DNA from: Arcuatula senhousia | Lineage: Eukaryota > Mollusca > Bivalvia > Mytilida > Mytilidae | Direction of reading: 5' to 3' | NCBI GenBank assembly: GCA_963971305.1 | Contig: OZ020309.1 | Location: forward strand, 5,821,001 to 5,885,000 | Length of the DNA stretch: 64,000 bases | Shown here: positions 5,181 through 49,102 of the stretch, piece by piece | Numbering within the stretch: position 1 is the first letter of the stretch | Layout of the letters: each line of letters opens with the position of its first letter | Translations under genes and position numbers: made by a program | The notes under the pieces: generated by a model | Database searches by the model: none | What the model was told of the DNA's origin: nothing | Seen by the model: only the letters and a program-made list of their open reading frames with translations

Positions 5181-5189
5181 TTATTCACC

Positions 5190-7401: not shown

Positions 7402-8640
7402 AGGTAGTAATGTGTCATATCGTACAATGTTTGGTAAAGGGATTTTGTCATGGTATGGTAAAGGGAGGTCATGGTTTGTACAAGGGATTTATTTCTAAAA
7501 TATGTAAAAATACCTTTAACACGATAAATTTTGAAAAGGGAAAATATAAAATTCCCTAATTTTACTTGATTCTCCCAACAATATGCGTTTACTGTTAAGT
7601 TCTCACACACATTTAAGCAAAACCAGGATTTATTTCTCTTGTAAACTACTACAAGAGGGTCGACCCTCTTCAAAACGTTTTGAAAGAAGGTCTACATCTA
7701 AGGTTTCAAAATATAAATCGACATCTGAGGTACGACCCTCTCAGAAAGGCTTTACAACAATGTAACTATATCCGAGGATAGAGGGTCGACCCTCTCAGAA
7801 AGGCTTCAAAACATTGAATAACTACCTACCCTTTCAAAAAACGTAAAACGAATGTGTATCTGAAGGATGATGGTCGACCCTCTCAGAAAAGGGTTCAAAA
7901 GAATCGATAGCTATTTGAGGGTCGACCCTATCAGAAAGGCTTCAGAACAATCGATAACTATCTGAGGGTCGACCCTCTCAGAAAGGCTTCCAGACTATGT
8001 ATCTGAGAATAGAGGGTCGACTCTCTGAGAAAGGCTTTAAAACAATCGATAGCTTTCTGAGTGTCGACCCTCTCAGAAAAGGGTTCAAAAGAATCGATAG
8101 CTATTTGAGGGTCGACCGTATTAGAAAGGCTTCAGAACAATCGATAACTATCTGAGGGTCGACCCTCTCAGAAAGACTTCCAGACTATGTATCTGAGAAT
8201 AGAGGGTCGACTCTCTCAGAAAGTCTTCAAAGCCATAGATAACTATCTGAGGGTCGACCCTCTCAGAAAACTTTAAACAAATGTGTACATGTATCTGAGG
8301 GTAGAGGGTCGATCCTCTCAAAAAGGCTTCAAAACAATTAATAGTTCCTCTTAGAAAAGCTTCAAAACAATGAATAACTATCTGAGGGTCGACCCTCTCA
8401 GAAAGACTTCCAGACAATGTATAAATATCTGAGGGTCGACCCTCTCAGAAAGGCTTCCTGACAAAGTATAAATATCTGAGGGTCGACCCTCTCAGAAAAG
8501 CTTCAAAACAATGAATAAATATCTGAGGGTCGACCCTCTGAGAAAGGCTTTAAAACAAAGGACAGCTATCGGAGGGTTGACCCTCTGAGAAAGGCTTTAA
8601 AACAATGCATTATATCTGCGAGTCGATCCTCTTGTAGGGA
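7402..8640 (+). repeat. Left inverted arm of the giant transposon
   Basis: The outer 250 bp (7402-7655) holds the tip, two TCATGGT..GGTAAAGGGA motifs and a unique block ending near 7655. The inner 1 kb is an array of a roughly 47-bp unit, each unit containing the palindrome GAGGGTCGACCCTC or a one- to three-base variant followed by a TCAGAAAGGCTTCAAAACAA-like spacer. About 19 palindromes are visible, for example near 7657, 7780, 7966, 8154, 8250, 8384, 8432, 8478 and 8526. Open frames across the array are satellite translations, not genes. Confidence 0.85.
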
Positions 8641-9387
8641 GTCAAGCTTATAGTTTGAACATTTTTGAAGTAGAGCATTTAGGGACCACCACATTGAAAA
8701 GACCGGGATAAACTACGTATCACACTCAAGCTTTGAGGGGGCTTTCTTAGACATTCATAGAATGATTCAAATTAAATTCATGTTAAGTTAGCCGTCTTTA
8801 AATGAATAAAAACAAATTAAAAGGAACAATATTTTCCGTCTTTCAAAATATAGTCAACAATTTGGTAATGTTTGTATAGATGTATTTTGTCTTTTAATGC
8901 TATAACTAGAGCTGCTAACTATATATATATTTAAAAATCATTAAGATTAAAATAAGTTTTATTTAATTGATAATTAAATCGACATTTCGGGTGAAACAAT
9001 TAATATGAATTTCATACAACGATAAATAATACTGAATACATTTATACATTTTAATACATTAAAACATAATATGGTGTTAACCTTATTCTGTATTAACCAA
9101 TAAATTGAACATGAAAAGTTCTAAATACATTCTCTTCACTATAAATATATTTTCATTATTCAATTACTACCCATACAAAAATCTTCATTTACTTTTCATA
9201 TCTTCAAAAAACAAAACAGATCAATGGGTGAAATATAACGCTTAAGTTTTGCCTTATCAAATGAAAAGAAAGTGCAAACATTTCATTACAATAGATTCTA
9301 AAAAGCTTGATGATATATTTACTTGACAGCAAAAAGGTATACAGATGATTTAATTTTTAACAGTTAATAATAACACCATACATAAAA
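8641..9387. other. Space between the left array and the ParB-like stop codon
   Basis: AT-rich DNA with no open frame of note. It should contain the 3' UTR and polyadenylation site of the ParB-like gene. A reverse-strand AATAAA lies near 8958-8964. Confidence 0.5.
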
Positions 9388-10187
9388 TTAAATCTTCAAA
9401 TGGCAAGGCTTCAAAACCCTCTTAACTTTGTCCATGGTGAATTCAACAAGATATCCTAAAAAAACAGACAAAATTATATATGTATTGGCTGTTATCATGA
9501 ACCAACTAACAATTTTGAAAAAAGTTTTTTTGTGTTTTTAATAATTTTGCTGAACTACATTTAAAAGGAAGTTAAATCACATAAATTCATCAAGACATGT
9601 AAGATGGACCAATTTTTATCTGCTTAAATACTTCACCAATATCACTATATTCAATATTTCTATCAATCTGCCAGGATTTTGTTGTATTTATGATTCTTGA
9701 TATTCCGTTAGTTGAATTTCTAATTTCTAATATTCACTATTAGCCCCTTTGACAGCTCATTCATTGTGTTTATTTTATAATTGTTTCTTCTCGGAATATC
9801 TTCCTACCCCCATGTACAGGTTACTCAAAGTTATAATTATTTGGGTTTTACATTGTTCAAGTTCGGCATATTTGGGTTTTATTAGTGGTACGATATGCTC
9901 TTCATATTCATATAGTATTTGCACTTTCAATCTTTGTGATGTAATTAAGAACGTCTCTGATGAGTCTCGAATAGACAAATGTTCTTCGGGTGTAGCAAAA
10001 TGTAATTCTTGGAACTTTGTAGCATTGTTTATTCTCAATTGCTTATTTCTTTATTTTTTCTTGTATTTTTAAAGTACACACCTGTTTTTTTCTCTCCGCG
10101 AACTATAGCATCATACCATGTGTTGTCCTCCTTCCAGAAGGCTTGGATCTTTTGATCAACAGTATATTCCTTTATCATACATGTACC
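9388..10187 (-). CDS. Tudor-like C-terminus (exons 16-17 of the ParB-like gene)
   Basis: Exon 16 (10187-10082) and exon 17 (9455-9388) together encode residues 661-717. The pattern IQAFWKEDNTWYDAIVRG, then GYLVEFT and V.RVL, follows the Tudor barrel layout of strand, D/E-x-x-W-Y-x-A, and a V-x-F strand. Aromatic residues W and Y suited to a cage are present. The usual Y-G-N turn is replaced by MDKVK, so methyl-lysine or methyl-arginine binding is uncertain. The stop is TAA at 9388-9390. Confidence 0.62.
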
Positions 10188-13100
10188 CTAAAGTAACAAA
10201 TCATATATATAAAGTATACATAAAACATTCAGTTAGTTTCTAAAACATTTATTCTAAAATTAATAGTTTTCTGATTTTAATAATTATATACTGATTTCAA
10301 AAAATCATATTTGATACCATGATCAACAGAAATCTTTATTGAAGACAAACATTTCAAGGAGAATCTTTCATTTCAGTCAAAACGAGAAATCTGTGAGCCA
10401 ATGCTTACTAGTGATGAATCCCGCTTTCACAAATACAAAGTTTACAGCAAACAAGAAGTAAATGCTTAATGGATCCAAAAATGTATTAGCAACCTAGGAG
10501 TTATAGTTGCTGCGTTATACATGCAAGTGAATGAAAAGTGTTACAGATTTTTATTAAAGTTTTCGGTAAACATGAAGTAGATGTCTGATGGAACCAAAAA
10601 AAAAACGAATCCCTAAATACAACATGCCCATATCAAGCTTGTTAAAAATATCAGCAATCTAGGAATTAATACAGTTGCTAAGTAATGAGCAAATAAAAGG
10701 CGGGTTGGAATAAAAGTTTGACGGAAAAATTTATAAAGATTTCGTTAAACAGGAAGTAGATGTCTGATTGACCCGAAAACATACCCCACTATGTATCATG
10801 TCCATATAAACCTTGTCACCAAATATGAAAAACATAAAGCACTAATAGTAGATGAGTTACGAGTTAACAAAATGCAGGACGGAAACACTGCATGTTTTAC
10901 TATATTGTACATACCTCTTTGGATTTGGCGTTTTGCTTGTTTTTAGTGTTTGTGTCCGTATTGCTTTCCTGTAAAAATATTTATAAAACGTCTGAGCACA
11001 ATCAAACTTTAGCATATTAAAACTAAACACAACTACTAGCTTTGTTAGCCCTGTCGATACTTTTTCTATACCTCCGGTTGCTATGTTGCACAGTTGAATC
11101 AACTTTTGGGTATTAGGACTTGTTGGATACAAATTTCAAATTATTTTTTAAAGTTACTTAATCTTTTTAAAAAGCAGCGGATTATTTCCTTGTTTTGCAC
11201 AGGATCAATATCTTCTGCGCTGAATTTGGCTTTTTATAAACTTTTTAGTAAGGTGTGATACTTCTGTTTATTGAATAAATCTGAGAAGAAAGTTTTCTCT
11301 TCAGCCAGGACAGCATTACTTAACATATTTATTTTTCGTTTTATCTACAATCGCTTTATAACTATGTATTTTCTTTTAATTTTTATACAAGTAAATTGAC
11401 TCAACAATAGTTTTACATTAAAAAGTTTTTCTTTGAATAAATCACATATTTTGTATTGACAGTTCTGCTTTTGTATTAGAATTTTTTGACAAAATGAAAT
11501 AAGATGCTTTTTACAGTGCTTTAGATCTCTGATTTTTGTTAGTCAATAATGCACACTTCAAAGCTTAAATTATCTAACACATCCAGGTGTATTAGTTTTT
11601 TGACAAACAACACAAACCTCTATTCTTAAAGTCTTTCTCGGTGAGGGATTAAGATCCACACATGAGTTAACAATATCATCTTCTGCCATGCCTGAAATGA
11701 AACCCATATGATCCATGAGAATGTTTCATTCATCTTAAATCAGTAAGGACAAAATGAAGAAATAACGTAAACATTCCTTACATTTGACATTTTTCATAAA
11801 AATAATCATATCTTGTGAAACAAACTATGGCATATATAATGTTAAGACTTTCCTATCTAAAATTAAAACAAAGAATGAATGAACCATAGCCACTGCTCAC
11901 TCAGTATTCCTACGGCTCCCCCCTAAAAGTCGATAAACTGGAAATAGATATCTGACAGACCTAATTCTAGTCATCGTGATAAAAGTCATTATACTGATAT
12001 CATATACTCAGTATCAGTACTAGTTAAGTTGGTGTGATGAGTAGCTGCAGAGAAAACCAAACCTTCACGAAAATTCTCAACAAAACACCACTAATGTTGA
12101 AGATTGATTAAGTCAGTAAACAGAAAGTAGATATCTAACAGACCCAATGTCGTATCTCTCGGTAAAGGACCTCATACTGATGCCACATACTAAAACATCA
12201 AGTCCTTGGACCTCTGGCTTTGTACTTGCTGGGAAAAGAGTTTCACCAGTTATGTTGAGGACAGACATTAGGGATGAACAGAGGAAAACCAGTATATTTT
12301 CTGGTAATATAATACGATTAGATTAAGGATTCTCGCTAATCTTGTATTTCTGTCATTTTTTTTCGGAATCCTCTGGACTTTACCTTTAAAAAAGGGGTTA
12401 AAATTTTTGCCCACGAACCCCTATTTTCTTGTAATCAGTTTCATTAATATGTCATAAAGAAGCTTTATCAAATCCTTTTTATTCTGTCATGGGTTTAACA
12501 GCTTATAAGTGCTAATGCTAAACCTATGATAAAGTCAGAGAAAACGTTTTCCCGCCAAAACTTTAACGTCTCCAATTATCTTGAACCTATCAAAATGTTT
12601 TGCTTCTTATATACCATTTACTATTGTCTTTCAATTAAGGCATCATGAGTTTGAAACCTATTTATTTTCAATAATTAGTAGTGAACATCCTTAACACATA
12701 CTTGTCACGGTTTCCTGCTGCTTTCTTTTCTGTGCAACATCACGCATCTTTCGAATTTCAGCATACATGTTGGCCATCTTTCTCTAAATTACACATGGAT
12801 AATCGATAATAAAAATGACATTGTTTTGATAGAAATGAATTACACTATACATTTTATAAAAAGAATGGTAAATGTTTGAGTATAGGAAGAATTTAAATTG
12901 CCATTTCTTTAATGTTGGTTGTGTTGCGTACATCTATTCCACATCTCTTTTATCTCGTCTATAATTTGTGTAGTGTAAACATATTTTTGTTAAAATGGGT
13001 GTTCAATAAAACAGTGACCACATCCTCACCATTTGATAGGGCATGGTGTCATAGTTGAGGATTTTGTCTATTTACCACTGCAAATTATTTATGCTGCTGG

Positions 13101-16100
13101 TTGATTGATTGACTATCAAATATATTAATTCCATATATATGTATTTATTCCTAAAGTGCAATGCATAAAATACAAAGATCTATAATACTCGTTTCGAAAA
13201 AGTTAACTACCTTGTTTTCCACACTTTCAGACATCAAAACTTTGTTTTCTGATCTTATGTCCTCGATTTCTTTTCTCATCTTTTCTATTTGAACTTCTTT
13301 CCCCTGAGCAATATTCTATAAAGATTGGATAAAAAAGACATACATGTATTTTCACATCTGAATATATGAATATTATTACAATAAATAGTTACATCATTAA
13401 ACTAGATTAAAAGATACTACATTTATGACATTAACTAGGTTCTTTTAAGTAATCATTATGATATCCAAGTCTAACTGTAAAAGGAGATAATTTCGCACGG
13501 TTTAAATTTCGTGTTTTCAGTCCATCAAAATTCATTTACAAGGTTTTAGTTTCGCATTTTATTAGATCATGGAATATTGGGTCCTTCTTAATTAAATGTA
13601 ATTTACGCGAGGGGATATTTTTGCGATTTTGCGACAATGAACCCTTCCCGAAAATTAAAGTATTTGTATTTAAACAACAACTTAAATAAATAAGAACAGA
13701 TTTATGCACTGGTTGAGTGTGCATGCACCTAAGCGCAATTTCATTGCCTTGAAATTAAATGATTAACTCTAATCCTGTCCATGCATTTTTCACTTGTTTT
13801 AGTAAATTCAGTGTAAAGCAATGTTACTATTCATTCACGTTATCGGTTAAACTCAGTAATAAGTAATCAACATTCAATTTCTATTTCGTCTTTCCTAGTA
13901 TGGGGCATAAGCTATCCCATTAGTTCAACTTTGCTCCTGAAATACACTCTTACCTCCAATGCTTTAATCTTTCCTTTAAGGATACGATTTTCCTTTTCCA
14001 AGTTACTCTTTTCAGTGAGCTATAAAAAATTAAAAAATATATGAACAAAGCCCAATACAAGAAAACTATCTTTGCATTTAAATTTATGGGGAAGAGTATT
14101 TTAATAACTTTAACCAACTAGAAAATGAGACAAAGCCTACACTACCTCGAGTTAGCTTCTTAAAATTGGAGTTACACATGTGAAAAATGTTGTGTAAAAG
14201 TTAAAATTAATTAAGCTTTAGGGGGAGTTGCAGATAAGTGTTGGTACCATGACTTTACAATATTTTTATATGTAATGTTGTTGTTATTTTTTAACAGATT
14301 GTTTTCTTAAGTAATATATGTTCTCTTATAATATTAACCAGGTTCTTTTGTTCAACTACCTGACCCGGAGATCAGAAACAAAACCCGCAATTTCTTTCGA
14401 AATTCCTTTTGTTACCAATCATTGTGGTCTTAAATTGTTATAAAGGTTTAATGAATTTCCAAATAACACCAAATGGAATTCTTTTAACAGACTGTTTTTT
14501 TTTAATATATCCCATCTACGAAAGCAGGGAATATATAGTCTCCGAGTCGGTCAGTTCGTCCGTTCGTCCCAAATATTGAAAGATTGGGCATGTTCATTTT
14601 CCTTTTCTTTTGTCTTTATTCAAATAAAGATGTCACCTGTTCACTGTCAATGTTTACTGTCATGCCTTCTTCTTCTGTTTCGCTATCTTCTTCATCCATG
14701 ATATTCTGAAAGAAACATTTAACAAAAGATTGAACATTTTGCTTTAACAACGGGAGGGGGTAATTTCCATTATAAATGTGCGGCTCAAAAGGATCTACTT
14801 TAAAATGGGATGTGCAATATGTGAAGCGAGTGGAATTTTAAGATATTGCGTACAACTCTACACAAATAGACTTATATAAAGTAAAATAATATTTCTTCTG
14901 AACAATACGGCTAAAGCTGGTGTAAGAAAAATTATAAAAATAGTAAAAGTTCTTGAACTGGATACGCATGTTTTAGTAGTGATATACATGTATATGGTGT
15001 GGGTGTTGAATGTAGGTTTGTCACGCATCCTCCTGTTAAACGAAATTTGACCGTTTCTATCTTTGACCCATCTTACACTGTTATTAAATATTTGCACTGT
15101 AATTCGATCTGCATTGGATTTTTTTTCTTTTTAATGTTCTCTATTTAATGGGTAATGAATTTAATTCTTCTAGACAGCCTCGTGCTTTTTTACCCAAAAA
15201 AAGTTACAGCATACCTCCCCAATCTGCATAATCTCTGTCTCTGTCTTGTCACTTTTTCTTGATGTTTTCTCATTTGTTCTTAAATGGAAGATGTTTAAGA
15301 CATTAGGCATTTGAAATATGAACATATATTTTTATTATTCCTATATACAATAAAAAAGAATCTGCGATGGCGTTGTTAGTTTAAGAGCTAATGCCGATAA
15401 GATTTGAACAGCTGCACGTTGATATCTTCCAATTTTGGTTTGGTTGTTTTTTGTCTTGATGCATTCACTTGACCATAAAACCCCATCGATATAGTAAGTG
15501 TCCAAAAAAACTTTTTGACACTGTTCATTTAGCGAAAGCGAAAAGTGGTCTAACTATGCCCATACATTCACTGAAACTATACTTTAACTTGTTATATCTC
15601 CTTAACCCCAGACAAAAACATTAAATTGTCATAGCGATTTTTTTTTTCTGGCTGCTTGACCTTATTATAAGTGCTTTCTTTCACAATATCATACAAACCT
15701 AAAAAGAAAAAAGGGTTACCTGAACATAAAATGATATAAAAAGTTAACTAGTTTTACTTACTTCTCTTTCAGTTCTTTGCACATTAACCCGAACTCTTTA
15801 AAACTAATTGCCTCTTCTGTGTTTGCTCTCTGGATTGTCAGCATTATTTCCTCTTCCTTCAGGCCATCCAAAGATTTCATCTGCCTTTTACTTACTGGCT
15901 TCTTTGTTTTTTCCTCCATTCTTTTTGAAAACTCTTTAACTTCTAGCCAAACAGGTGTTGCAAGTTTTGCCAAAGCAATGTCAAAGCGAAAGTTATTATT
16001 TAACTGCTTTCGCTGGAAGTATAAATATAATACCTGTATATATCATACATTAAACCTCAAAGCTTAAACATGTTAAATAAAGGTAAAAAACAAGTGTGGC

Positions 16101-19100
16101 CACTAAAAGTATGTCTTGCCTGTCAGCACTACTGTAAAACTAATTCACAATCTATCGAGGCATTTAGTACACTATTACCCAAGTGTCGGCATACTAAATA
16201 CCAGATGCTCAAGTATAATACTTTTCAATTAATTCATCAGACATCCACAAAAGTCTTAAAGAGGCTTACAACCCCACAAAAACTAAGTTGACAAAGTCCT
16301 TGAAGTGTGAAATTTGGGTCAGGATCACATGGCATGATGTCAGTTGTGTAGACCTTCATCCTAAGTGTGAGACAAAAATTATAAAGAACTTGGAAGATCA
16401 ATCTCAATAAATAAATTTTAGAAAATTATTAGTTGCATTTGCATTGAAAGAAACTTGGGTTTATTTTCTTGTAAACTTTTATAAAAGTCAAAAGAATTTG
16501 ATTTCATTAACAATTATAGTTTAAACTATACGCCTAATATCTTAATGAAAGTATTATCGAATCCAGTTTAAACCAGAATACAAGAATGAAGTTTATGTAC
16601 ACTTTGCAGTTGCAAGGACGCCACGTGCAATGTGATTGACAGGTGTAAAATTAATACGCCGATTCAATTAACCGAATATATCAAAAAACAATATTTATAA
16701 GTATTAATTGTAATATTTCTTTGGTTTATAGAAGCAATAAACTAAATTTTTAATGGTACACATTTTACATAATCCGCAAAGCGGATTATTCAATGTGCAC
16801 CATGAAAATTTAAGTTTATGGTTCAATAAACCAAAAAAAAATTATTTTCAAATGAAATGGTTGGTAAAACCAGGTTTTATGGCGCGCCAAACATCCAACT
16901 TCAATTACGATCTAAGGGTCCGGTAGTTTACACAAAACATAAGACGGTTGCCGCATGTTTGTTTTTTTGCATGTCATAATGTGGTTGTCGTAGGTTCTCT
17001 TGGTTTTGCCTTTTTTTTATTGTGGTTTTTAGAATTTAAATGCTAATTTGTATTTATTTCCCTTCTTATTAAATCATTTTTTTTATTTTACACTTACACT
17101 TTTAACTCCTGTAATGTTTTCCAACTCTGTCTTCCATTTATTGACGGTGTCTCTTTGATTGGGAGTCCTTTCTTGGTCAATTGCAACTCTTGTGTCCATT
17201 CCTCCTATTTGAAACAATGTACATCGAAAGCACTCTACCCTCTTAAAGAAATTTAGCTCCTTGCCAAGCTTGTGAATTGTGTTGTGGTCCATACCCACAC
17301 GTTTAGCCTCTGCGGGGGTCAAATCGCAATAAACAACACATAAACGTTTTAAAAAGTCTTCTCTATTTTGAAGATCTTCTTCTTTTATGATGTTCTGAAG
17401 TGCAATTCTTGAATGATTGCCCCCGATCGTCTGAAATTTCAGGCCACTAAAATCTGTTGGTAACTCTTTAAACCCTGGTAGATTAACAGCCATCAATGTG
17501 AAGTAACTAGCTGGTCTTTCTTTAAATTCTTTTGTCAAGTCTTCTACATGCTTGTCATCTGCTGGTCTTAGTAGCTTGTCAAAAGTTGGTTCCACCAGTT
17601 GCTCCACATTGATGATATAGTATCCTGAAATTCAATTTTTGAACAGTCCCTATAAAAATTGATGATTTATTCTACAAGATGGGCTCCTCATGGGGGGTAC
17701 CAGAAATCAAGTAATCAGCATTTTTTTGCTAAAGTAATCAAATAATCATATATTTTTTACAAATGTAATCAAAAACTTTCTCCTTATGGGAATCAAATAA
17801 TCAAAAATTTAAACCTTGGTAATCTAATAATCATAAAATATTTGCTCTTGTAATCAAGTAATCACCTTTAAAATGGCATGGGAATCATGTAATCAAAAAC
17901 CCCATGAGAAGGCAAACAAGACAAAAGTTGGTGACTATTGGTTTATAGCCATTGTTGACCATTGTTCTACAGTAAAGGCGTTTTTGCTGGTTCTATATAT
18001 ATTAAAATGTACAATTTTTTCAATAAAACAAATAACAGTTTTTTATATGGCTTAAATATATGGCAATGTTATAGTGGGCTCATATTTAATTTATTCCACC
18101 ATTAATTTTGAGGCTACTTTGAAGAAGAAGAGTTCACAATAATGTATAATTTTGCCTTGCTAGTTTCATTTCTTTCTGTTTAATTGACCGTCTGACTTAA
18201 TTTGACTTCTAAATTATCAATATATCGCTCTATATTTGTTTTCATTCTAAACTAAGAATGAAAGGTTGTACAAATTTTTAAGATATTTTATCGTATACAA
18301 ATAAATCAGAAATCCAAACTTTCAAAAAAGAAATAAAAACAAAAACAAAACATCCATTCAATACTTTTTGATACGCCTGTGTGCATTTCTTCTTTTCAAG
18401 AATAATCAGAGGCAATAATTATGTTCTTAAAAGTTTATTTGCATTGTTTATGTTAATTTTACTACTACCTTTAAACTTTTTCTTAATTCCTTCCTGGAAA
18501 TCACAGGGAATGTTGATCAAGTTATCTATGAAAATAAATACAAATAATAACTATTGAAATCTGTGAGCGAGGGCATTGTAACTATCTTACTTTTTGGTCT
18601 GTTTTAATATTACTATAAGTAAAAGAGAAAAGTTACAATAAGTGTGATGTTATTAATCTTTAATACAGACACATGCAGGTGAAACAGTATTAAGTGTACC
18701 CAAAGTGTAAAGTAATGCATAATTTCGTCCTACAAAGTTGACTCTACATACTTCATAAATCATGATGTGCTTAACAATATGCAAATTAAAATTCTTAAAT
18801 ATCTTGCATAGTTTTTAAGACATTGAGCTTAATAAGTGTAAAAGAAAAAAATAGAATAAAGAAAGGGCAATAACTCCTTCATGTGTTGTTGGATATTCTT
18901 CAAAATTTCAGGGCAAGTAGATCTATGGATGCTGATACAAAACCTTTTTTTTTATATCTGTAGCTATTTTGGAATTGCAAAGCTGAAAAAGCTGCAATTT
19001 ACCTCTATGTAATATGTTCTCTTTTTTTTTGCCACAGCGGTCATGTTTTACAACAAATCAAAAATCCCCACATCAGTTCTAAGCATCTAATGCTAAAAAA

Positions 19101-25266: not shown

Positions 25267-25984
25267 ATGGATGCCGGAATGATTTTGGGCGAGGGTTCTG
25301 TAACTGAGTCTGTTACCGAGCATATTTCAAACGCATTAGATTCATCTGATATTCGTGAAAAAACTTCATTTGATTTCTCGTTGGACAGTAACTGCGAAAA
25401 TGTTAAAGGGATAGATGAAGACATATTCAACGAGTCTGTTAGTACTGAGCATATTTCAAACGCTTTAGATTCATCTGATATTCGTGAAAAAACTTCATTT
25501 GACTTTTCTTTGGAAAATAGCTGCGAAAATATTAAAGGGAGAGTTGAAGACATATTCAATGATTCGAATTCATCCTTCATCCGCGAAAAAACATCATTTG
25601 AAGTCACCATTGATAGCAGTCGAGAAAATATTCCGCATGATATTGACTTTTCACTGAATGATTCAACTTATTCTGAATCTGAACAGTTGAAACCTAGTAC
25701 TAGTAAATTCGGCGACATTCCATTGTCCCCTATTGCAAAGGATCTTGATTTTGCAATTTATGAATTCGAAGATTCAAATACACCGCCACCAGTGAGGGCA
25801 CCAAGTATAGGTTCTGAAGGCCTGTTTGAAGATACGTTGAAAGAAGATAGTAGTGACGTTATATCTATTGTTTCTTCCGCTTTAGAAACAAGTGGTTCAT
25901 CTACAGAATCCCTACCGTTCGGACATTTGGAATATGAAGAGCCAATTTTGACAACAAGTACACCTTTAAAAAAGAGACGAAAAG
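25267..25984 (+). CDS. Transposase exon 1: acidic N-terminal repeats
   Basis: The ATG at 25267 is preceded by GAAA, and an in-frame TTG two codons upstream is not needed. The exon encodes 239 residues rich in Ser, Asp and Glu. A 43-residue unit (TEHISNALDSSDIREK and following, from residue 17) occurs twice almost identically, with a third shorter copy starting at SSFIREKTSF. The exon ends with a basic KKRRKG motif, a possible nuclear localisation signal, at the GT donor at 25985. If that donor is not used, the frame continues with CYCSKCG and a terminal H before a stop at 26055. Confidence 0.75.
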
Positions 25985-28900: not shown

Positions 28901-31900
28901 TGCAATAACTTGGCTCGGTGAATATATTGCTAAAAGAGGGGAACATCCACCACACAAAACAGAAGTATGGTTGCCTTTTGGATTGAGAAAGAAAGAGATA
29001 TATGAAGCTTATAGAAATGAACAAATTGTTGATATGCGGCCTTTCGTATCAAACATGTCATTTTACAAGATGTGGAAATCATTTTATCGACATGTTAGAA
29101 TGAGACCGGTAAGTTAAGCACAACTAAAAGCATGCAATGAGCGTTTGATTTGATTAGCTATAACTCCATAGTCTGACATAACTATAAACCCATTGGCATA
29201 TATAGCAACATTATATATATGTGGACGAAATTTAAGAAGCACTGATCATTCAATTTTTTTAACATATCTTTATTAAAACCACTGCTCGGGTAGTGGTAAT
29301 TCTTCTTGTCCATTAATATATTTCATATCTAATTTTAACGTTTGTCCAAGTGTGTCAAAATGTGTGTATAATCAACATGTTTGAAGAATGATTACTCTTA
29401 AAATGAAAATGTTTATATTTAACTTAATTCCTAAGTTAGTCTGATCCGGTGTCAACACGTTGTGTTAAGAAACACTAAGGGAGCGACCATTGGAGTTTTA
29501 GGGGGGAGACTATGGTGAAATTTGAAATAAAAATAACCAGAAAATAAAAAGGCAGGACAGTGCATTGAATTTGTTCCCAAAATAACTGGTTCTGGTTGGC
29601 CATGTGTTTTAAAATTTGACAATGATATGCTTTACCGTTAAACTATATATGGAATTGACTTTGGGAGTTCCCCTTTTTTCATTTAGAAATAAGGGCCCAA
29701 AAGAGGAAAGAAATGCACCTTTTTTTTATTTCTAGACCGATATTGAATTATTTGTTTGCATGTCAGGTAGTGGATAAAAAAAATGAGGATTAACCCCCCC
29801 TTTTCCGTTTTGAAATTAGGGGCAAAAAGGAGCTAAATCGATTTTTTTCATTCATTTTCCGATTTCAAAATTTATTTTGCTTATTAATTCCTGTCAAATA
29901 GTGAATTCACAAAATAAAGGATTAATTTTGTGTTATACCCTCCCTCGTATTGCCGTTAAGGGTCAAAAGGGTCAAAATGAAAGTTCGTATAGAAACCTTT
30001 AATTATGGGCCAAAAGGGGAAATATATTTGTAACTGTAATTTATTTTGGTCTTCTTTTGAAAACAAATTGAAATCCTTATGAAATGTGGATGAAAGGTCC
30101 ACCAAAGGCTGCATGTGTAAAAAAAACTTTGTAAATCCAGAGCAATTGACTATCCATATTGGGACTCAAATGTACAGGGTTCGACATGTTACGATCCTGT
30201 CAGGCTCCGCTTGGCGAAGCTTTTATTTCGTAAATTAAAAAGCAGGACATGCATGAGGAAAATATCCCTAGCTAAGCCCCCACTCCACTTAAAATCAAAT
30301 TAACATCTATTACTGGCTATAAGTTTTTAAAACTCTAGTCAATTTTCCCAAGGCATAAGTTGAGCTTATTCATGATTTTAACTCCAATTGCACATTAATA
30401 AACTTAACTTTTAATTAAGCCCCCGTTTTCATTTGATTTATTGTAAGTTTTATACATTTTTGATGAAACACTTATGACGAGTCTTAAAAAGGTATAATGG
30501 GCATCAGTCGTTGCAAAACTTTGTTGAATGTTTTAATTGAATAATTATATTGATAAGATGTGCATTGATACTTAATAATCTTAGCTATTAGACTAAATTT
30601 TTTTAATGATTTTTATTTTATAGACAAACCTCTTTACTAAATGTACCGTCTGTGTAAAGCTAGACCGGGCTTTACAGTCTCAGCTAAACCCAACAAAAAG
30701 GCAAGAAATTTTTAGAGAGAAGCAAGAACATCTTCACAGAGTAATGTAAGTGTATTTTAAGTATTAATACATTCTATAATGTATTGATTGATAAATGTAT
30801 TTTAACGTAAATTGTTGGATGAGGCAACAATGACATAATGTTTATTCACTTCGAAGATAAAATCCAAATACTGTAGAAGAAAATGAGATGTGGAATAAGT
30901 GTACGCGACACAACCTACATTATAAACGTATATTTTAAATATCCACAATGGAAAACAGCCAGCAGCCTTCAATGTGACCAGCGGTCGCTGCTCGCTGTCT
31001 TTATCCAAATACTGTAGTTTACATTTAAAAAACTTAGCCAAACATATATATGTATGCCTTAAGTGACAAGCGAACAGTAATGAAAATAAACTCCATCAAG
31101 TCCTTTTTTTATTTAGGGTTGAAAAGCTCGCATACTATCGTAGACGAGAAATCTCAAGAAGACGACCAGATAGATTCGTGAGTTTGATTATTGACGGCAT
31201 GGACCAGTCAAAGACAAGTCTTCCACATTTTAAGGACAGGAAGGGTAAAGTAAGTAATGATAGTCTTGAAATAAAAATGGTTAAGGAGTTATCAAATTTA
31301 AATCTGGTTGAATTATTCTAAATTGTAAAGCTTTTTATAGATGTTTTCTTTGAACACGTACTTAGATGTAAGTAGGAATTTAAAATATTTTTGTATGTTT
31401 TTGATCAAATCCTTAGTATGCTTAAACAAAGTATCCCAATAGATTCGTTACTACAGAGGTTGCTGGAACTACATCGATTTCCTTGGCAAAGCGTCACGTT
31501 TGACACAAAAAATTGCTAACACAAAGTTATGTTGCTCCTCTGTTGCTACTCAAGAAGTTTCATGGTAGAAACCATGCACACGTAGACAAATTTGAGATTT
31601 CTACCTCGCAGATGATGGCAGATGTTGGTTTGTCATAGAGTATTGTTTTGTCTTCTTTTACCGTATTTAACACACTGCATTTGAAATAAGCAACGCGACG
31701 GGTTTGCTTTAGCAGGCAGGAACCGCTTACTCTTCCGGAGCACTTGTGTTCACTCTTGGTACGATTTGAGTTCGCTTTATTGATTTCCATTCGGTTTAAT
31801 TTGTGGTTTTGTTTTTATAGGTTTTGTATTTCCTCGTGCTATTCTTGTTCGTGTTTACCGATTTGGCTTTGCCATTTTGAACTTTTGACACTAGAATGAC

Positions 31901-34900
31901 CCATTGGTGCCTATTTGCTTATTTGTAATATAATTCATGTTGACCATTACATAACATTTAACATTTTTGAAACTGTACGAACTCTGATTTTTTTAAAGGA
32001 TTTAGCATCAACCCTTCCATTGAAAACCCACATTTCAGCTGTAATAAGTCACGGAACAAATCAGAGAATGGTATTTTCAGATATATATCAATACAAACAC
32101 GACTCCAACTTGACGCTTAACATATTGATGAAAGTACTCTGGGAACTTTCAAAGGTAAAGTTATATATAAAACAAGTTTCTCGCTAACAGTCAGAGTATA
32201 AAACTCAAAAATGCAAAAAGGCTTGTGCCCCTTAATTATAAAGCTAAATACTGAAATAGGTCTATGCAATTAAAATATATTATGAAGAAGACATTCTTAC
32301 ATTTTCATACACTAATATAAAAAAAACGTTTTTGGGAGGCAGAAAATAAAACTATGACTACTAACTACTATTAGAAATGATATCTATCCACTAATAGGCA
32401 ATGGTCATGATGGTATATGAATACAATGCCATGTCTGTATGTTAAATCAGTTAGACCAATTACTAGTGACTTGAAGAGGGGAATGTTTGTTCTTTGTAAG
32501 ACATTTTTGCTTGTTACATTTTTTTCTCATGATTAGCATTATCTTATATGACAGCAATCCTTCTCCAGAGTATTTTTTTCACCTCAACGCTACCAATACC
32601 AAATTTGTTTTTTCATCAATACTCAGATTCATTTTTTTGTGAAAATACAAAGGCTACAGTTAATATTAAGTGTTACATGGTTGTTGCGTTAAATGTTAAG
32701 GTTAATATGAAGATCTGGGTAAAATTGAAAAAAAGGACTTTATGAATGAAGCGAATTTTCAGAATAGCGGTGATCAAAACAGCGACTTTTCTGATTACAT
32801 CGAAATTGCGACATAAAATTTACAGGTTAACATATATAAAATATGCACAGAAATATTGTTTTATAAAGAAAAAGAGGGTAGTTATTTGTATATTTTACTT
32901 TGATTTGCCTTTTTATACATGTATATTTTAAATTTTATGTAAGGAATGTTTTAAAAAGGTCATTTTTTCGAAAGTATATTTTTTGTACATGCAATGCCAA
33001 TGATTCTTACATTTGATTATAGGAATATGACCTGATAAAAATGTTTTATAGAAAGATTGAATAAATATTAAATGTATTAGGAATAAAGCACTATTATATT
33101 TTTAAATGATTTATCTAAAAGCTAACATACATATTTCGATTACTTTTTTGAATTTCGCAGGGTAAACCTCTCCCGCCTGTGCTGTATATACAAGCTGACA
33201 ATTGTTTTAGGGAGAATAAAAACAGATACATTCTTTCTTTCCTTGAGCTATTGGTCCACTTAAAGATATTCTATGAGGTAAGTGTTATGAATACTTTATA
33301 TATGTCTACATTGGCATATAGAAATAGGACTTCTAATGAACTAATAGACCTATACTAAGAAATCAGTGAATGTTAAACAGAGGTAAATTCAAATTTAATT
33401 CTATGAATTTCTGTTTTCATGATTGAAAAGTTTTAAATTCAGGCAATTAAATTAATATAAAAGTTAAACATAAATTTAGGGTCAGCTGTTTGATAAAGTC
33501 AAAATTTGTTGTTGTCAAAGATTTGTTATTTTTCCCCAATGACCAGTTATAAATGTTTATTTATTAATTACCAGGTTCGAAACATGATAGTCTGTGAAAA
33601 TGTATGCTTATCAGAAGATCTTTATAGTTGCAATGATCCGTATAAATTATAGCCAATTCCCAGTGTGATCTCATTATTAGGATTAGCGTTTAATGATAAT
33701 GTTATGCAGATTTGTCAGAATTCTCTATGGTGTATTTTCAAGTACATGTCAAAGGTGTGGAAGGGCACAAGTGGCAGCTTATCAATAAAAATGACCTATT
33801 TTATTTCTTTGATATGTTAGTTATGCTTGCTGTTTTCTTTTTTCTTGATTGTCAAGATATGTAATAAAATTATTTCTCTGTAATGACTCAGCAGCTACTC
33901 GAAAAAAAATATAAGAAAATACCGATACCAATTATTTTTAGGTTTTTTTCCTTATTATTTGCTTAAATTTAACAAAAATATTATTTTTCAAAAGCAGTTT
34001 TGAACATATTAGTGAATGTTAATTTTACAGCAATGAAAATGCTGATTTAATTGCAAATATTATTACACCAGTTCATATTTAAATGCGAGTGAGATTGATA
34101 TCGGTCGTTATCATCCTTATTAAAAAGTTAGTTATAAAAACATTTATTTTAGTTAACGAGTGATAGGCTCATACATTTTGCTAATTCTAAAGTTAATAAG
34201 AGACAGGTCGGAAAGGATTTTTTTTAAACAAAAGCTATGTGAACAATAGAGAAAAAGATCTTCATCTTTGTAAAATGTAAAAACTGGGCGTTAAACTTTA
34301 ATTTTGATAAATAATCCATGTAAAAGAAACGTTTATTAAATCCATGATATGAAATAAAGCAATTACAACATAACATTGCACACCCGATGTTAAAGATATA
34401 GGATCTATGATTTTGGCAATTTTTTTAAAGTATTTATTTCATTCATTATAGCTTTACTTCATCAAAATATAAGGTGAATACATGAAAATTTTGCAATTCA
34501 TGAAATAAATTAGCTTAGAATTTTGATTTAAAAGTTGTTTTTGAATATTATCTGCCAGACAGAAATTCAAGTGTTCCACCCAAAGGCATCAATGACATGC
34601 CAATCAAATTACACTTAAATGTCTTATCCAATGGTTTTGACCTATTTTCAAAACATTTCACAGGATCATGATTACCTCTGACCAGAGCACACATGTTTTC
34701 TTTGTTAGAAAGTTGATTGACAGCATATGGGGAGTTACACAGTAAATTACATGCATTCTTGAAGCAATTAATGCTTAATTAATGTACCTGATTAAGATTT
34801 TATCTATCATAATTGATAAGTTGCAATATCTTAAGAACAAAATGCAAACAAACAAAATTTCACAAAAATGGTAGATCCTATCACTTTAAAAAAGTTGAGC

Positions 34901-37011
34901 AAGTTGTTAATAAGCTCTAACTTTTTAATTCTATAAAAACAAACGGATACATTTATTTAACCACATTTCCTCAAAATTCAACATAAAAAGTAATTAAAAA
35001 ATCTCTATTCTTAAGACTAAGACTATTAAGCTATTTGATATCAGAGAATGTTCATAGTAAAACCTTAATGAACTTTACAGTTACTCTGGTCAGCCGTTAT
35101 CAAAATAGCAACACAGAAGAGATAAATTGATTACAAGCTCTATGATGTTCCTTACAATTCGCAGATGGTCGTGAGAAAGATCTACACGTGTGGAACTGAC
35201 CAGTCTAGACTAATAAAATTAATCATTATTTCTGACCTATAAAACAGCCAATTAAAACTTTTTTTATCTGAATTATTGCCCAGAAAACAGTTTTCCATTT
35301 TTTAATGTTTACAATATTTTCCACCATCTGAGTTAAAAATTGCTTAAAAACTTTCAAAATTGTTATTCTGAATGGTATTGAGATGCAAAAAATGTCTGAT
35401 TAAGAGATAAAACAGAAACCCATTAAATTGTATAAAATGTAGGAGAATGTGGACGCAAGGGACTTATTAAGTAAAAATAAATAAAAAGAGATTATCTAAA
35501 CTATTTTAACTACAAGACCATCGTATAAAATCTGTCAATGTGCAAAGTAATAATTAATATCTTACATAACATATTACTGGAAGATTGGGTAATAATTTTG
35601 ATTGATAGACACTAATCCGGCAAAATTTATTACTCATTGTGTCACTATGAATAATCATGGTACAAATCCACTTTTACGGTTGATATATTTATAACATCAA
35701 AATACCAATATTATGTTACAAGACTACCACAGATAAAGGCTTGACGTTGCTTCTTCATTTTCCATAAAATTACGACTTTTATGTTTGTCCTTTTAGAATA
35801 GGGAAAATAAAAACAAATGTATTGTCCCCACAAAAGAATACACTAAAGACCAAATTTGATAAGTTATAGTGTCCTAAGATGAAATTGTTTTCAAGACAAT
35901 TTTCATAAAAATATCGAAATAGATTTCCCCTGGTTTGTTGTAAGAAAACATGTTTTTTTTTCAGGTGCAACTGTCATTTCTTCAGGTGGGACACACACAC
36001 GAGGACATAGATCAAATGTTTAGTGTGTTTTCTGATAAGCTGAACCACACAGATGCATTGACATTGGACGATTTTCACAAGCTTTTATACAATGCCCAAA
36101 GCCTTGAAAGTTGTTTTGACATAAGTGGGTGGCTGGAACCTTATCTGGCTGGCGTAAAATATCACACGAAATCAAACATATTTCGATTTAGATTGCTAGA
36201 GCCGACTGCAAAAGTCAATGTATTTTACCGCCGGAGTACTCGACATCCATGGAAGACTCTTAAAAACGGTTTCTTCAAGATATCCAATGGAAGATCCGTT
36301 TTACCACAAAGGTCGCCCGAGGTTTTGCTATTGTCTCTCGATAAAGTTGACATCCAAGCTTTAAAAAGGGGGTTTGCGATTTGGAAGAACTATTTTAATG
36401 AAGGTCAAAAGCAATGGTGGTCAGCATTTTTAAGAGACTTAGAAAAACTGGATAGAAGTAAAGCTCTTCTTACTCAAAAGTCGAAGAGAGGTTGTCAGTG
36501 GAAGATGCCGATGTTCAAACATTATGATAAAGCAGCTCTCGAGCAAGAGGATGTCTCAGACCCCATACCAGATGACTTGAGAGGGATGATCAATGCTGAG
36601 CAAACAAATGAAGAGGTAGGTGTTTTCGTTTTAAGATTGCATTTATGACAAATATTTCCTTATTGACCGGGTTTGTTAGGGGTCCTATTTCGGTTTCTTC
36701 ATTAAACAAGAGCGAATATTAGGTGTGAATACAATTTAGTAATATATGCTAATACAAAATTATAGATCTAAAACAATATATTTCATTTAGAATTAAGAAA
36801 TATAAGAAAAAGCCAAGTGACATTCGAATCCCAAAGTCCATTAATGAGAAAATAAATCACGAAAAATATATTAACTACAATATTATAAGCAACGTACAAT
36901 TTCGTGAAAAAAAAATATGTAAAATCTACAGATGCTTATAAAAGGAAAAATATAAACATATTATCTTATATTTTTTTACTTGTTTTCTTACAGATTTTTG
37001 TGAATAATTGA
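25267..37011 (+). CDS. DDE/RNase H-like transposase, DUF7869 type (8 exons, 840 aa, intact)
   Basis: The exons are 25267-25984, 28501-29108, 30624-30745, 31117-31249, 31999-32154, 33161-33277, 35965-36615 and 36994-37011. All have GT-AG junctions and phases that agree, giving 2523 nt with no stop or frameshift. Residues 1-240 are acidic, low in complexity and internally repeated. Residues 241-442 hold a Cys-rich CGCKRPC motif, a W/K-rich segment and a GKNVCRKAWLNIYGI motif. Residues 443-482 carry a CTVC motif. The catalytic-type core has LIIDGMDQ (D509), IQADN (D592) and VGHTHEDIDQMF (E631/D632), spaced 83 and 39 residues apart as in DDE enzymes. The C-terminal 200 residues are basic and aromatic. 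The GHTHEDID motif and its context are those of proteins annotated DUF7869. That it mobilises this element is inferred from its position between matching arms. The exon-5 acceptor (AG 31997-31998) could instead be a few bases downstream. Confidence 0.83.
27195..27318. repeat. Tandem repeat of 'aaaattcagaagttgtaaaagtt'
   Basis: Three units of about 45 bp, two of them nearly identical (AAAGTTCAAATTTCACTCAA and AATTCAGAAGTTGTAAAAGT), in intron 1 of the transposase gene. Confidence 0.85.
27435..28380. mobile_element. Nested foldback/MITE with CCGTAACAATAAG palindromes
   Basis: The ends are GGCACAGGATACG at 27435 and CGTATCCTGTGCC ending at 28380, flanked on both sides by TATATAT, which may be the target duplication but is also low-complexity. 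Each arm of about 170 bp contains self-complementary stretches such as CCGTAACAATAAGAA joined to its complement. The middle has another hairpin around AGACCTGTAT (27638-27665). It lies in intron 1 of the transposase gene, so it inserted into the giant element. Confidence 0.75.
28501..29108 (+). CDS. Transposase exon 2: Cys-rich and DNA-binding-like region
   Basis: The acceptor TTATTACAG ends at 28500, and the donor CCG|GTAAGT is at 29109. The exon encodes about 203 residues. A DCGCKRPCINKDYF motif is followed by a helical W/K segment (FWGLNKQEKTKWML), a VCRKAWLNIYGIPKSSFYRY segment, and a basic stretch ending MRP. In DUF7869-type proteins the equivalent region precedes the RNase H-like core; a role in DNA binding is inferred. 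Confidence 0.8.
29470..30080. repeat. Dispersed repeat related to 56510-57240
   Basis: It shares, in opposite orientation to the copy at 56510-57240, the recurring pattern of 'AAATAAGGGCCCAAAAGAGG' followed by an AT-rich stretch. It lies in intron 2 of the transposase gene. Confidence 0.45.
31605..31890 (-). repeat. SINE-like repeat copy, diverged
   Basis: A reverse-oriented relative of the AGAAGCAGAGGTACC family, with CTTACTCTTCCGGAGCAC and AACGCGACGGG blocks recognisable. It lies in intron 4 of the transposase gene. Confidence 0.65.
33278..35964. other. Transposase intron 6
   Basis: A 2.7 kb AT-rich intron. No coding stretch or clear tandem repeat was seen. Confidence 0.55.
35965..36615 (+). 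CDS. Transposase exon 7: GHTHEDID catalytic motif and C-terminal domain
   Basis: The exon has 217 codons, entering and leaving in phase 0. VGHTHEDIDQMFSVFSDKL supplies the putative third acidic residue. It is followed by a region with W, R and K clusters (KQWWSAFLRDLEKLD, CQWKMPMFKHYDK) and an acidic tail, then a six-codon last exon at 36994-37011 (IFVNN, stop). No disruption is present. Confidence 0.82.
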
Positions 37012-38165: not shown

Positions 38166-41100
38166 TTTCACGAGGGTCGACACTCTGTAAAAGTATCAAT
38201 TATTGTAAAAGTATTGTATTAACAAGAGTGTCGACCCTCTGATATTAAATCATAATAATACTACAAGAGGGTTGACCCTCTTGTATTAGCACAATTGCAA
38301 GAACCCTCCATTACGAACTTTTCGAGAGGGTCGACCCTCAAATAGTTATCAATTATTTTTAAGCCTTTCTCAGAGGGTCGACCCTCTATCCTCAAATATT
38401 TGTACATTGTCTGGAAGCCTTTCTAAGGGGGTCGACCCTCAGATAGTTACCCATTGTTTTGAAGCCTTTCTGAGAAAGGTTGACTCCTATCCTGAGATAT
38501 CTATATATTGTTTTAAAGCCTTTCTGAGAGGGTCGGCCCATGGATAGCTATTCATCGTTTTAAGCCTTTCTGAATTTATGCATTGTCTAGAAACCTTTTT
38601 GAGAGGGTCGACCCTCAGATATCTATACATTGTTTTAAAGCGTTTTTGAGAGGGTCGACCCTCAGATATCTATACATTGTTTTAAAGCGTTTTTGAGAGG
38701 GTCGACCCTCAGATATCTATACATTGTTTTAAAGCGTTTTTGAGAGGGTCGACCCTCTATACATTGTTTTAAAGCGTTTTTAAGAGGGTCGATGATCAGA
38801 TATCAATACATTGTTTTATAGTGTTTCTAAGAGGGTCGACCCTCAGATAGCTATCGATTGGTTTGAACCCTTTTCTGAGAGGGTCAGCCCTTATTCTTCA
38901 GAAACACTTTCATTTTACATTTTTTGAGAGGGTCAACCCTCAGATAGTTAAACATTGTTTTGAAGCCTTTCTGAGAGGGTCGACCCTCTATCCTCGGATA
39001 TATATACATTGCTGTAAAGCCTTTCTGAGAGGGTCGACCCTCAGATATCATTTCATTGTTTTGAGGGCTTTGATTTTGACCTTCTTTCAAAACGTTTTGA
39101 AGAGGGTCGACCCTCTTGTAGTAGTTTACAAGAGACAGAATTTGATTTTTTTGCTTATGTGTGTGTGAGAACTTACCATCTGATGACAGTAAACGCATAT
39201 TGGTGCGAGAATCAAGTAAAAATAGGGAATTTTATATTTTCCCTTTTAAAAATTTATCGTGTTCTTTATTTCAGTATCAAATAGTGAGGAGAGCTGAAAG
39301 GAATTGAACATGATGATAAAGGATTACTGTGTTAGCTTTAAATCTGCTTAGTTGTGCTTATTAACTAAATTTAAATTGTGTCATGGTTTGGTAAAGGGAA
39401 CAGAAAATTGTCATGGTTTAAACCATTATGTCATGGTTTATCACATTTTCTAAAGTTAGGAGATCGGACAAATTATTAGGTATTTTCTGCTGTTTTATTG
39501 TGTTTGGCGACATACTGTGTTTCCGTGTTTCTTAATACGCATCTTTAACCCCCGAAAAAATCATTGGATCGTTTCTTGGAATTTATAAATCGTTACCTTC
39601 AGTAATAGCATATAAAAGATATATATTTTTATATATATAATTTAAATCCTTTTAATTGCTCTAGACCGTCACTAAGCCAACAACATATACTAACCATCAG
39701 GATTACCATTGAACAATTAAATATGAATATGGTTATTGTAAAATGTATAAGCTTCTAAAAACAGTACAAGCTACTGCTGTATGATAATATAAAAATATTA
39801 TGGATGAAGCAAACGTTTCTCTAATACAATAAGCACTGCTGTTGCACTGAATAATATTATTATGGATTAAGCAACATATTCCCTGAGATATGCAAGAAGC
39901 AGAGGTACATGTACCAATGGGGTATCCATAACTGAATGTCAATCAACAACGCGAACTCCACTCAAAACGAGAATGAACTCAGGTGCTCCGGAAGAGTAAG
40001 CAGTTCCTGCTTGCTATAGCACACCCGTCGCGTTACCAACAGTCAATTCAGTGCGTCAAAGAAGCAGAGGTACCAATGTGGTATCCGGATGTCAAAAGTC
40101 CGAAAGAGCAGACACAAAACCAGTAAACACCAACAAGAACAGGACTAAAACAGACAACATGTAAAACATGGAAAAACAAAACAACTGAATATCAATCAAC
40201 AACGCGAACTCCAGTCGAAACAAGAGTGAACTCAGGTGCTCCGGAAGAGTAAGCAGTTCCTGCTTGCTATAGCACACCCGTCGCGTTGCCAATAGTCCAT
40301 TCAGCGTATCAATTCCGGTAAAGGAAGACAAATCAACACCCTATGACAAACCAACATCTGCACTCATCTGAGAGATTGTCAAATCCGGTAAAGGAAGACA
40401 AAACAAAACTCTATGACAAACCAACGTCTGCACTCATCTGATGCCCTTTGCAATAGTTCAGTTGGTAGTGAATATCATTTAAGTTATGGAATGTCCTTCT
40501 ATTAATACTGAAAGGAAAAGCTTCATTGATAGGGAGTAGAGAGCTTTTAGTATATATATTAGCGGCAATAAACAAAATCATGCATTAAATCTAATGCCTA
40601 GTCAGTGTTTTCCTGTATACCTTTGTGTCTATTTTGACTTTGAGTTTCCATATTAAATCCCATATCATTTCTCGAGCGATGTTATTGTCTCAGCTTATGC
40701 CTACATCTAAAATGGGAGTCTCGAAATGATATGGAACATGATATGGCAATTTCTGTATGATAATAATTATCTCATGATTACTCTAACATGTCTTATGAAT
40801 GACATACAAATTTTACTGTTATAATTTTTTTGTAGGAGCGGTAGATATGTATATTTGTAGTATGCATTATTTTGGTAATATGTATATGACCAGTTTAAGG
40901 TTTAAAACATAATTGTTAGCTCATATGATTGAATAAGATTTAAAATATCATTTTTAAATATCCCTTGACCAACCCATGACCACCCTACACTAAACCATGA
41001 CGTCCCTTGTACAAACCATGACAAGTAAAAAAAAAAATATTTTTGCGATGCATGCTTTGTAAGCGTTTAATTACGCTGAACAATGTGTCAAAAGATTGTA

Positions 41101-41426
41101 TGCACAGTAAATGATTGTTGTTGGGCAACATCTGGCTTTTACTTTTGCTTGGAACATAAAATGATGTTATTTTATCAATTGAACAAAACTATTTTTCCTG
41201 AATGGTTTAGCGAGTATATTCCATCATTTACATGTGCAATGTTTTAGTATAAATATATCTTGCCCTTAAAAATGCCCGAAAACGCCTTTTGTGCCCGGAA
41301 AAAATTATGATTTCATTTTTGCAGACGACATAATGCAAATATCCCTTGTACAAACCATGACGCCCTTGACTAAACCATGACAAAATCCCTTTACCAAACG
41401 TTTTACGATATGACACATTACTACCT
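38166..41426 (-). repeat. Right inverted arm of the giant transposon, expanded by about 2 kb
   Basis: This is the inverted counterpart of the left arm. It has about 19 copies of the GAGGGTCGACCCTC palindrome between 38166 and 39115, then the conserved block at 39060-39290, then the tip at 41341-41426. Between 39300 and 41340 it holds about 2 kb absent from the left arm: extra TCATGGTTT/GGTAAAGGGA motifs (39381-39442 and 40965-41030) and SINE-like repeat copies (39893-40440). Unit-by-unit similarity, including shared variant units around 38860-38990 and 7780-7900, shows that the arms descend from one sequence. Confidence 0.82.
39893..40440 (+). repeat. SINE-like repeat, two copies in tandem
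   Basis: A shortened copy (39893-40060) is followed by a full one (40062-40440). Shared phrases are AGAAGCAGAGGTACCAATG, GCTCCGGAAGAGTAAGCAGT, TTCCTGCTTGCTATAGCACA and CCCGTCGCGTTGCCAATAGT. A 70-bp tail segment around CCGGTAAAGGAAGACAAA is repeated twice. They lie in the extra 2 kb of the right arm of the giant transposon. Confidence 0.8.
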
Positions 41427-48985: not shown

Positions 48986-49102
48986 ATTCTTTTTTAAAAC
49001 TAGTTTTATTTGATTGATGTTTCTAAATTAATACTAGAATTCTGAAGAAAAAAAAATAGAACATAATAACATTACATAACGTTCAGTAGACAAACTACTT
49101 AC

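Follow-up and report, generated by a model that had tools for sequence, protein, structure and literature searches.

A 34-kb element of the bivalve Arcuatula senhousia combining a predicted DUF7869 transposase, a ParB-like gene and palindrome arrays in both arms: a possible end-pairing transposon

Limits, arms and palindrome arrays of the element

The window analysed here is a 64-kb stretch of Arcuatula senhousia DNA, which harbours a single copy of a large element with inverted ends, located at an RNF213-like intron. The match between these ends extends precisely up to a 5-bp direct repeat (ATACC), found on the plus strand at positions 7394-7398 and 41430-41434, and we therefore set the limits of the whole element at 7399-41429 (34,031 bp). 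The original prediction of one inverted-ended stretch is thus correct, with its proposed extent of 7402-41426 enlarged to the ATACC flanks, which represent candidate target site duplications. Both ends of the element begin with CA(C/T)AGGTAG, and the 21-mer AGGTAGTAATGTGTCATATCG is present in perfect copies at 7402-7422 (+) and 41406-41426 (-). The inverted tip match as a whole (7399-7488 vs 41429-41341) reaches 91% over 90 columns. This one copy displays the inverted terminal repeats and candidate flanking target duplication of a DDE-type transposon, in agreement with the single insertion proposed earlier. Two terminal GTCATGGTTTRGTAMAGGG-like motifs at 7447-7486 (+), with right-end counterparts at 41343 and 41363 on the minus strand, are candidate transposase-binding repeats.

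The left arm, defined by TRF units and inverted matches, is a long inverted repeat at 7399-8632 (+). Its segment 7518-8500 matches 39263-38318 of the right arm in inverted orientation (76.7% over 1011 columns). The right arm is broken by approximately 2.1 kb into an inner part (38172-39263, minus strand; best match at 38318-39263, palindromes beginning at 38172) and an outer part (41341-41429, minus strand), the latter corresponding to the tip match. The interruption (39264-41340) contains GTCATGGTTT motifs in inverted orientation, at 39380 (+) and 40962-41004 (-). Dispersed repeats were also observed in this interruption, at 39930-40441. The long arms and matching tips anticipated from the first inspection were thus recovered, and so were the arrays, as TRF identified 47-bp tandem units in both arms.

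These units are centred on a perfect 14-bp palindrome, GAGGGTCGACCCTC. Counting sites with up to three mismatches, we found 37 near-identical copies in the two arms, compared with 0.29 expected from shuffled sequences, and none elsewhere in the window. The left array (7655-8631, +) comprises 19 sites, nine of them exact, and the right array (38172-39115, -) 18 sites, including 10 exact ones. The arrays are located at the two ends of the element, with none in the intergenic region shared by its two genes. The palindrome is more conserved than the remainder of the unit. In a gap-tolerant count over five rotations of the unit, four had their highest conservation in the 14-bp window lying one base off the palindrome; the fifth, whose cut falls close to the end of the palindrome, gave 0.86 vs 0.80. 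This count supersedes a spacer-anchored, fixed-frame count. There, one-base insertions put some units out of register and the palindrome has been lost from two units, which explains why conservation showed no excess (0.175 vs 0.160 mismatches per base).

Two divergent genes

As predicted, two divergent multi-exon genes with open frames and consistent phases are found between the arms, although the modelled proteins have 845 and 660 residues rather than 840 and 717. The DUF7869 gene (25267-36648, +) was modelled from the sequence with seven exons (25267-25984, 28501-29108, 30624-30745, 31117-31249, 31999-32154, 33161-33277 and 35965-36648) and GT-AG introns. Its 845-residue product matches the Pfam family DUF7869 (PF25273; E=1.2e-67) and, over residues 240-840, a Mytilus DUF7869 protein at 59%. 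Structure prediction points to an RNase-H fold with an acidic triad, as in DDE transposases, consistent with the DDE-like character initially attributed to this protein; we consider it a predicted DDE-type transposase with putative catalytic activity. A search of the PDB sequences with the DUF7869 profile yielded one chance-level hit (E=0.59). At E≤1, Pfam, which includes a model for the KDZ (Kyakuja-Dileera-Zisupton) transposons, returned DUF7869 alone for the window protein, Mytilus P0001 and Branchiostoma P0007, and no other named transposase family was retained at this threshold. A PHD finger split over intron 1 was also rejected, as it scored 15.2 bits for a cut-off of 24 and is absent from Mytilus P0001. 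DUF7869 is named in no paper found in the literature searched.

The adjoining ParB-like/Tudor-like gene is located on the minus strand at 9388-25018. Its sequence-based model is open and in consistent phase over 16 exons (25018-24911, 22765-22637, 19987-19870, 19471-19367, 18525-18469, 17624-17098, 16012-15762, 15278-15215, 14705-14637, 14019-13954, 13315-13211, 12783-12702, 11691-11618, 10968-10915, 10187-10082 and 9455 to stop). The 660-residue protein is collinear with Mytilus P0052 from the first part to the last (39%), which bears out the ParB-like/Tudor-like gene proposed beside the DUF7869 gene. An earlier 609-residue model (start at 22704, in another frame near 22.7 kb) was dropped, as the Mytilus N-terminus matched the 660-residue version. 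The donor after the second ParB-like exon (GTTAAA) is weak; a stronger one, GTAAAT, breaks the frame.

The protein is organized as a ParB-like domain with predicted DNA-binding helices, a coiled coil and a weak Tudor-like tail. Sequence comparison and modelling place a ParB/Srx-like N domain (GGNHSRIAL, AKRVGMDHN) in the exon at 17098-17624 (-), and the exon at 15762-16012 (-) aligns with a stretch of the Mytilus protein fitting the DNA-binding helices of ParB (model range 173-437 of P0052). The predicted fold and profile comparisons thus suggest the succession of N domain and DNA-binding helices that is typical of the ParB family. The Tudor-knot signature of the Mytilus relative is just below threshold (20.5 bits for a cut-off of 20.8).

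Searches with signatures gave little for this protein. A PHROGs ParB match was obtained from the trimmed Branchiostoma domain only, and none from the full-length ParB-like proteins, the window exon, or the trimmed Mytilus or window domains. The 609-residue model matched no Pfam family at E≤1, and in particular no methyltransferase family, the latter being true also of P0052 and P0053; the trimmed domains matched no Pfam ParB model at E≤10. NCBIfam searches gave nothing useful, and the ParB profile found one chance-level hit among the PDB sequences (E=0.5). Foldseek with the ParB model returned 236 matches at E≤10, none of them at E≤0.001, with no ParB among the 50 matches listed. In an alignment made by eye and partly with hhalign, GGNHSR and HNTIH stand in place of GE(78)RR and E(111)NLQR, the CTP-hydrolysis motifs of ParB (PMC8494293), which are thus lacking in the ParB-like protein.

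The start codons of the two genes are separated by 248 bp (25019-25266), likely a divergent promoter. This shared region, the palindrome, the target duplication and the right-arm interruption were not part of the original prediction.

Proposed mechanism and competing explanations

We favour, as the somewhat more probable account, an autonomous cut-and-paste transposon in which the DUF7869 transposase acts at the tips and a ParB-like clamp loads onto the 37 arm palindromes, thereby holding the far ends together. By analogy with bacterial systems, the element would carry its own ParB/parS-like end-pairing apparatus: GAGGGTCGACCCTC would be the putative operator of the ParB-like partner, as parS, NBS or OB are for ParB, Noc or KorB. 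ParB dimers on the 19 and 18 sites would bring the two arms together over a distance of 34 kb, upon which the transposase, predicted to act on the tips, could assemble a single complex on both of them, and the Tudor-like tail might tether this complex to chromatin. Since the CTP-hydrolysis glutamates of Bacillus subtilis ParB are replaced here in the by-eye alignment, the pairing clamp is predicted to bind the nucleotide without fast hydrolysis, or to need none. In its fullest and more tentative form, our proposal is that of an animal transposon with a bacterial-style partition kit, namely a ParB-family clamp with a chromatin-reading tail and one parS-like array of 14-bp palindromes per arm. 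ParB would load, spread, bridge and pair ends 34 kb apart, lifting the usual size limit of cut-and-paste transposition, and DUF7869 would represent an unnamed transposase superfamily with 5-bp target duplications.

An alternative that we regard as unlikely, albeit worth serious consideration, is that DUF7869 alone mobilizes the element, with the ParB-like partner serving as regulator or silencing antagonist; it would spread from the palindromes and set the chromatin state, its Tudor-like tail reading marks, without pairing the ends. KorB, a ParB-family clamp, is indeed described as silencing promoters at distances of up to 1.5 kb (PMC11790492), and an algal ParB accessory protein fused to a DNA methyltransferase is suggested to modify the transposon that carries it (PMC12477816). 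The sub-threshold Tudor-knot of the Mytilus relative also suits a chromatin-related role. However, the arrays occupy the ends of the element rather than the intergenic region that the genes share, a layout that fits end pairing better than promoter control.

It is less probable still that the ParB-like gene travels as cargo, with the arrays a satellite-like by-product of array growth unlinked to it. A word-limited search of 5.8 billion proteins identified relatives of the ParB-like protein in Mytilus and Branchiostoma only; none was found for the oysters Saccostrea and Magallana or for Solemya, although DUF7869 proteins of the clade that includes the window protein occur in these genera, and the fixed-frame count would also agree with cargo. 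Conversely, the known relatives come from genera whose DUF7869 proteins group in the clade of the window protein, the gene keeps an open frame through 16 exons, collinear with its Mytilus relative, and the gap-tolerant count places the best-conserved window, in most rotations, one base off the palindrome. The suggestion of a conserved partner, as opposed to passing cargo, gains indirect support from this shared clade, from the common intergenic region and from arm palindromes of the kind bound by ParB, and is weakened by the three genera devoid of detected relatives. Finally, we deem it very improbable that the ParB-like gene belongs to the host as an ordinary gene, beside which the element landed or which it recently captured. 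In Mytilus, one relative (LOC143051911) carries an ordinary locus annotation on an 86.5-Mb sequence, but a bivalve host gene would be expected in other bivalves, and the gene lies wholly within the arms.

Neither a viral nor a bacterial source was found, as the corresponding searches were empty. In virus contigs, the DUF7869 and ParB patterns gave 38 and 496 stretches, respectively, with no confirmed locus, and none of 94 pattern stretches for ParB relatives in prokaryote genomes was confirmed. Palindrome pairs had no match in viral or prokaryote genome contigs, and the best tblastn hit of the domains to phages and plasmids had E=2.

Cut-and-paste transposons are usually short, and the element bears on the question of how very long ones join their ends. 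It offers a candidate answer legible in the DNA, with a gene for a site-loading clamp and, at each end, a likely array of its sites. If the end-pairing account is correct, a principle of bacterial chromosome segregation operates within an animal transposon, and DUF7869, a Pfam domain of unknown function, gains a role as a transposase family. The putative binding can be reduced in vitro to one protein and one 14-bp site.

Comparison with known systems

In a reading by eye of the 42 ORFs with 90 residues or more, no protein-primed DNA polymerase B or capsid gene of the Polinton/Maverick type was recognized. Like the element described here, KDZ transposons are eukaryotic DNA transposons of large size that carry accessory genes, reaching ~30 kb in algae (PMC12477816), but their target duplications are reported to be 7-8 bp long (PMC12730594), compared with 5 bp in our single copy. 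Galileo and other long-TIR transposons similarly have long inverted arms with several protein-binding sites; the transposase of Galileo, in contrast, is described as P-element-type with a THAP domain (PMC3688188).

The ParB, Noc and KorB CTP clamps share with the ParB-like protein the predicted N domain and DNA-binding helices, as well as arrays of a short perfect palindrome comparable to parS, NBS or OB. They differ in the GERR and ENLQR glutamates, replaced here according to the by-eye match to GGNHSR and HNTIH, and the protein of A. senhousia further stands apart by its Tudor-like tail and animal host. Unlike in ParABS systems, no ParA-like exon was noticed in a by-eye reading of the element.

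Close systems are also Sola1-1_Ec32 of Ectocarpus and related algal giants. As presented in excerpts of PMC12477816, this 21.5-kb Sola1 transposon encodes a ParB-like accessory protein on the strand opposite the transposase gene, similar proteins are cited from green and red algae, and the authors suggest that such accessory proteins bind their own transposon. The partnership between a transposon and a ParB-like protein alone therefore has a precedent, and the claim that the element is of an undescribed kind is only partly right. Sola1-1_Ec32 nevertheless differs by its Sola1 transposase and its brown algal host, whereas Pfam gives DUF7869 alone at E≤1 here, and by a partner joined to a DNA methyltransferase, in place of which the A. 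senhousia protein has a coiled coil and a Tudor-like tail. Palindromic arrays, which go unmentioned in those excerpts, are present in both arms of the A. senhousia element.

Limits of the element and arrays in its arms

The central observation is that a ParB-like gene lies within the element, and that arrays of a short palindromic site, the kind on which ParB-family proteins nucleate, occupy its two arms and nowhere else in the window. The inverted repeats proposed in the original prediction were borne out, with matching arms and a perfect 21-mer common to both tips, part of a 90-column inverted match (91%; 7399-7488 vs 41429-41341). A 5-bp direct repeat, ATACC, abuts this match on each side (7394-7398 and 41430-41434). 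Since the match ends exactly where ATACC starts, the element is best drawn at 7399-41429, i.e., 34,031 bp. Minus-strand exons on either side of it, 49034-49759 and 5185-5916, match neighbouring parts of the RNF213 chain (6tay residues 680-824, E 2.6e-7, and 1060-1193, E 4.6e-7, respectively), which places the element in an intron of an RNF213-like gene.

Inward of the tips, the left arm (7518-8500) aligns in inverted orientation with the right arm (39263-38318), with 76.7% identity over 1011 columns. An insert of ~2.1 kb (39264-41340) splits the right arm. It harbours additional GTCATGGTTT motifs in inverted orientation toward its two ends, as well as dispersed repeats also present elsewhere in the window, and is perhaps a nested non-autonomous relative. 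Dispersed repeat copies at 40058-40386, 55215-55541 and 60066-60310, one of them within the element, share 94-96% mutual identity. Outside the element, an inverted repeat of ~360 bp (50874-51237 and 52082-52435, 95% alike) possibly represents a separate foldback-type element.

Both arms contain a tandem unit with a period of 47-48, whose centre, GAGGGTCGACCCTC, equals its own reverse complement. At ≤3 mismatches, 37 such sites were found in the 64-kb window (0.29 expected), all of them within the arms (left 19, right 18); 19 of the 37 are exact. When 38-40 units were aligned with gaps allowed, conservation reached 0.92-0.94 for the palindrome vs 0.78-0.79 for the remainder of the unit in four of five unit cuts, the top 14-bp window being the palindrome displaced by one base. 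The fifth cut, which breaks the palindrome near its end, yielded 0.86 vs 0.80. With a cruder fixed-frame count the two did not differ (0.175 vs 0.160 mismatches), a result explained by several units that are shifted by one base and by two from which the palindrome has been lost. By eye, the outermost site of each array (7655 and 39102) and an inner site of the right arm (38267) have longer palindrome-like surroundings of the CTACAAGAGGGTCGACCCTCTTGTAG type, perhaps the ancestral source of array growth.

The two genes and their relatives

Both element proteins have their nearest relatives in Mytilus, which makes a bivalve host likely. A profile search, which covers only proteins sharing short exact words, collected five ParB-like relatives, three from two Mytilus species and two from Branchiostoma. 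In the latter two, the ParB part is followed by a charged, partly coiled-coil-like region and by a segment judged Tudor-like by eye; no Tudor family was matched in Pfam. An exact, likely recent 130-bp tandem duplication (22681-22941) spans the start of the second ParB-like exon.

The DUF7869 tree comprised 22 rows, namely the window protein and 21 of 51 DUF7869 proteins, restricted to named animals. Five Branchiostoma proteins group with the window-type bivalve proteins in a single clade (98/97), which thus includes both genera with ParB-like relatives. Oysters and Solemya also belong to it, yet the word-limited profile search returned no ParB-like relative for them. Outside it fall the proteins of corals, a sponge, a crinoid and a gastropod, together with another group of bivalve proteins. 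The C-terminus of the Antedon DUF7869 protein (P0018) appears Tudor- or chromo-like by eye, resembling a reader domain fused to a transposase, with no Pfam confirmation. The first DUF7869 exon harbours an in-frame 129-bp duplication (25314-25559, 90% alike) that repeats 43 residues, and plus-strand segments of intron 1 (25985-26020 and 27978-28110) are jointly PHD finger-like, at a sub-threshold score.

Possible roles of the arrays

The sequence displays the parts; what each of them does in the model that we consider most likely is inferred. The DUF7869 protein would act as the transposase at the tips and GTCATGG-type terminal motifs. The ParB-like protein would load on the arrays and bridge the arms, thereby pairing ends 34 kb apart, and its Tudor-like tail would link the complex to chromatin. 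The main alternative is regulatory: a ParB clamp might spread from the arms, shielding the element from silencing or controlling its genes.

Comparison with known systems

The claim of an undescribed kind of element held in part. A ParB accessory has already been published for giant transposons; its partner in the algal element is a methyltransferase (PMC12477816), whereas the ParB-like protein described here has a Tudor-like region instead. The same source presents the Tudor domain of a Gypsy element as the first to be reported from a TE. According to PMC12730594, KDZ target duplications are 7-8 bp, which sets our element with its candidate 5-bp duplication apart. The same paper gives 5-bp duplications for hAT5 families as well, but Pfam revealed no hAT family in the window DUF7869 protein at E≤1. 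The name DUF7869 was not found in the open-licence papers searched. As far as our searches reach, the novelty lies in the animal host, the predicted DUF7869 transposase, the Tudor-like replacement of the methyltransferase partner and, chiefly, the palindromic arrays in both arms.

The ParB-family sites parS, NBS and OB are all palindromic. ParB-family proteins nucleate on short sites: parS has 16 bp in two half sites (PMC8494293), the Noc site NBS is also 16 bp long (PMC8429893), and OB serves KorB, a CTP clamp which reaches distant promoters by sliding (PMC11790492). Should the arrays turn out to be the ParB operator, the novelty might be categorical.
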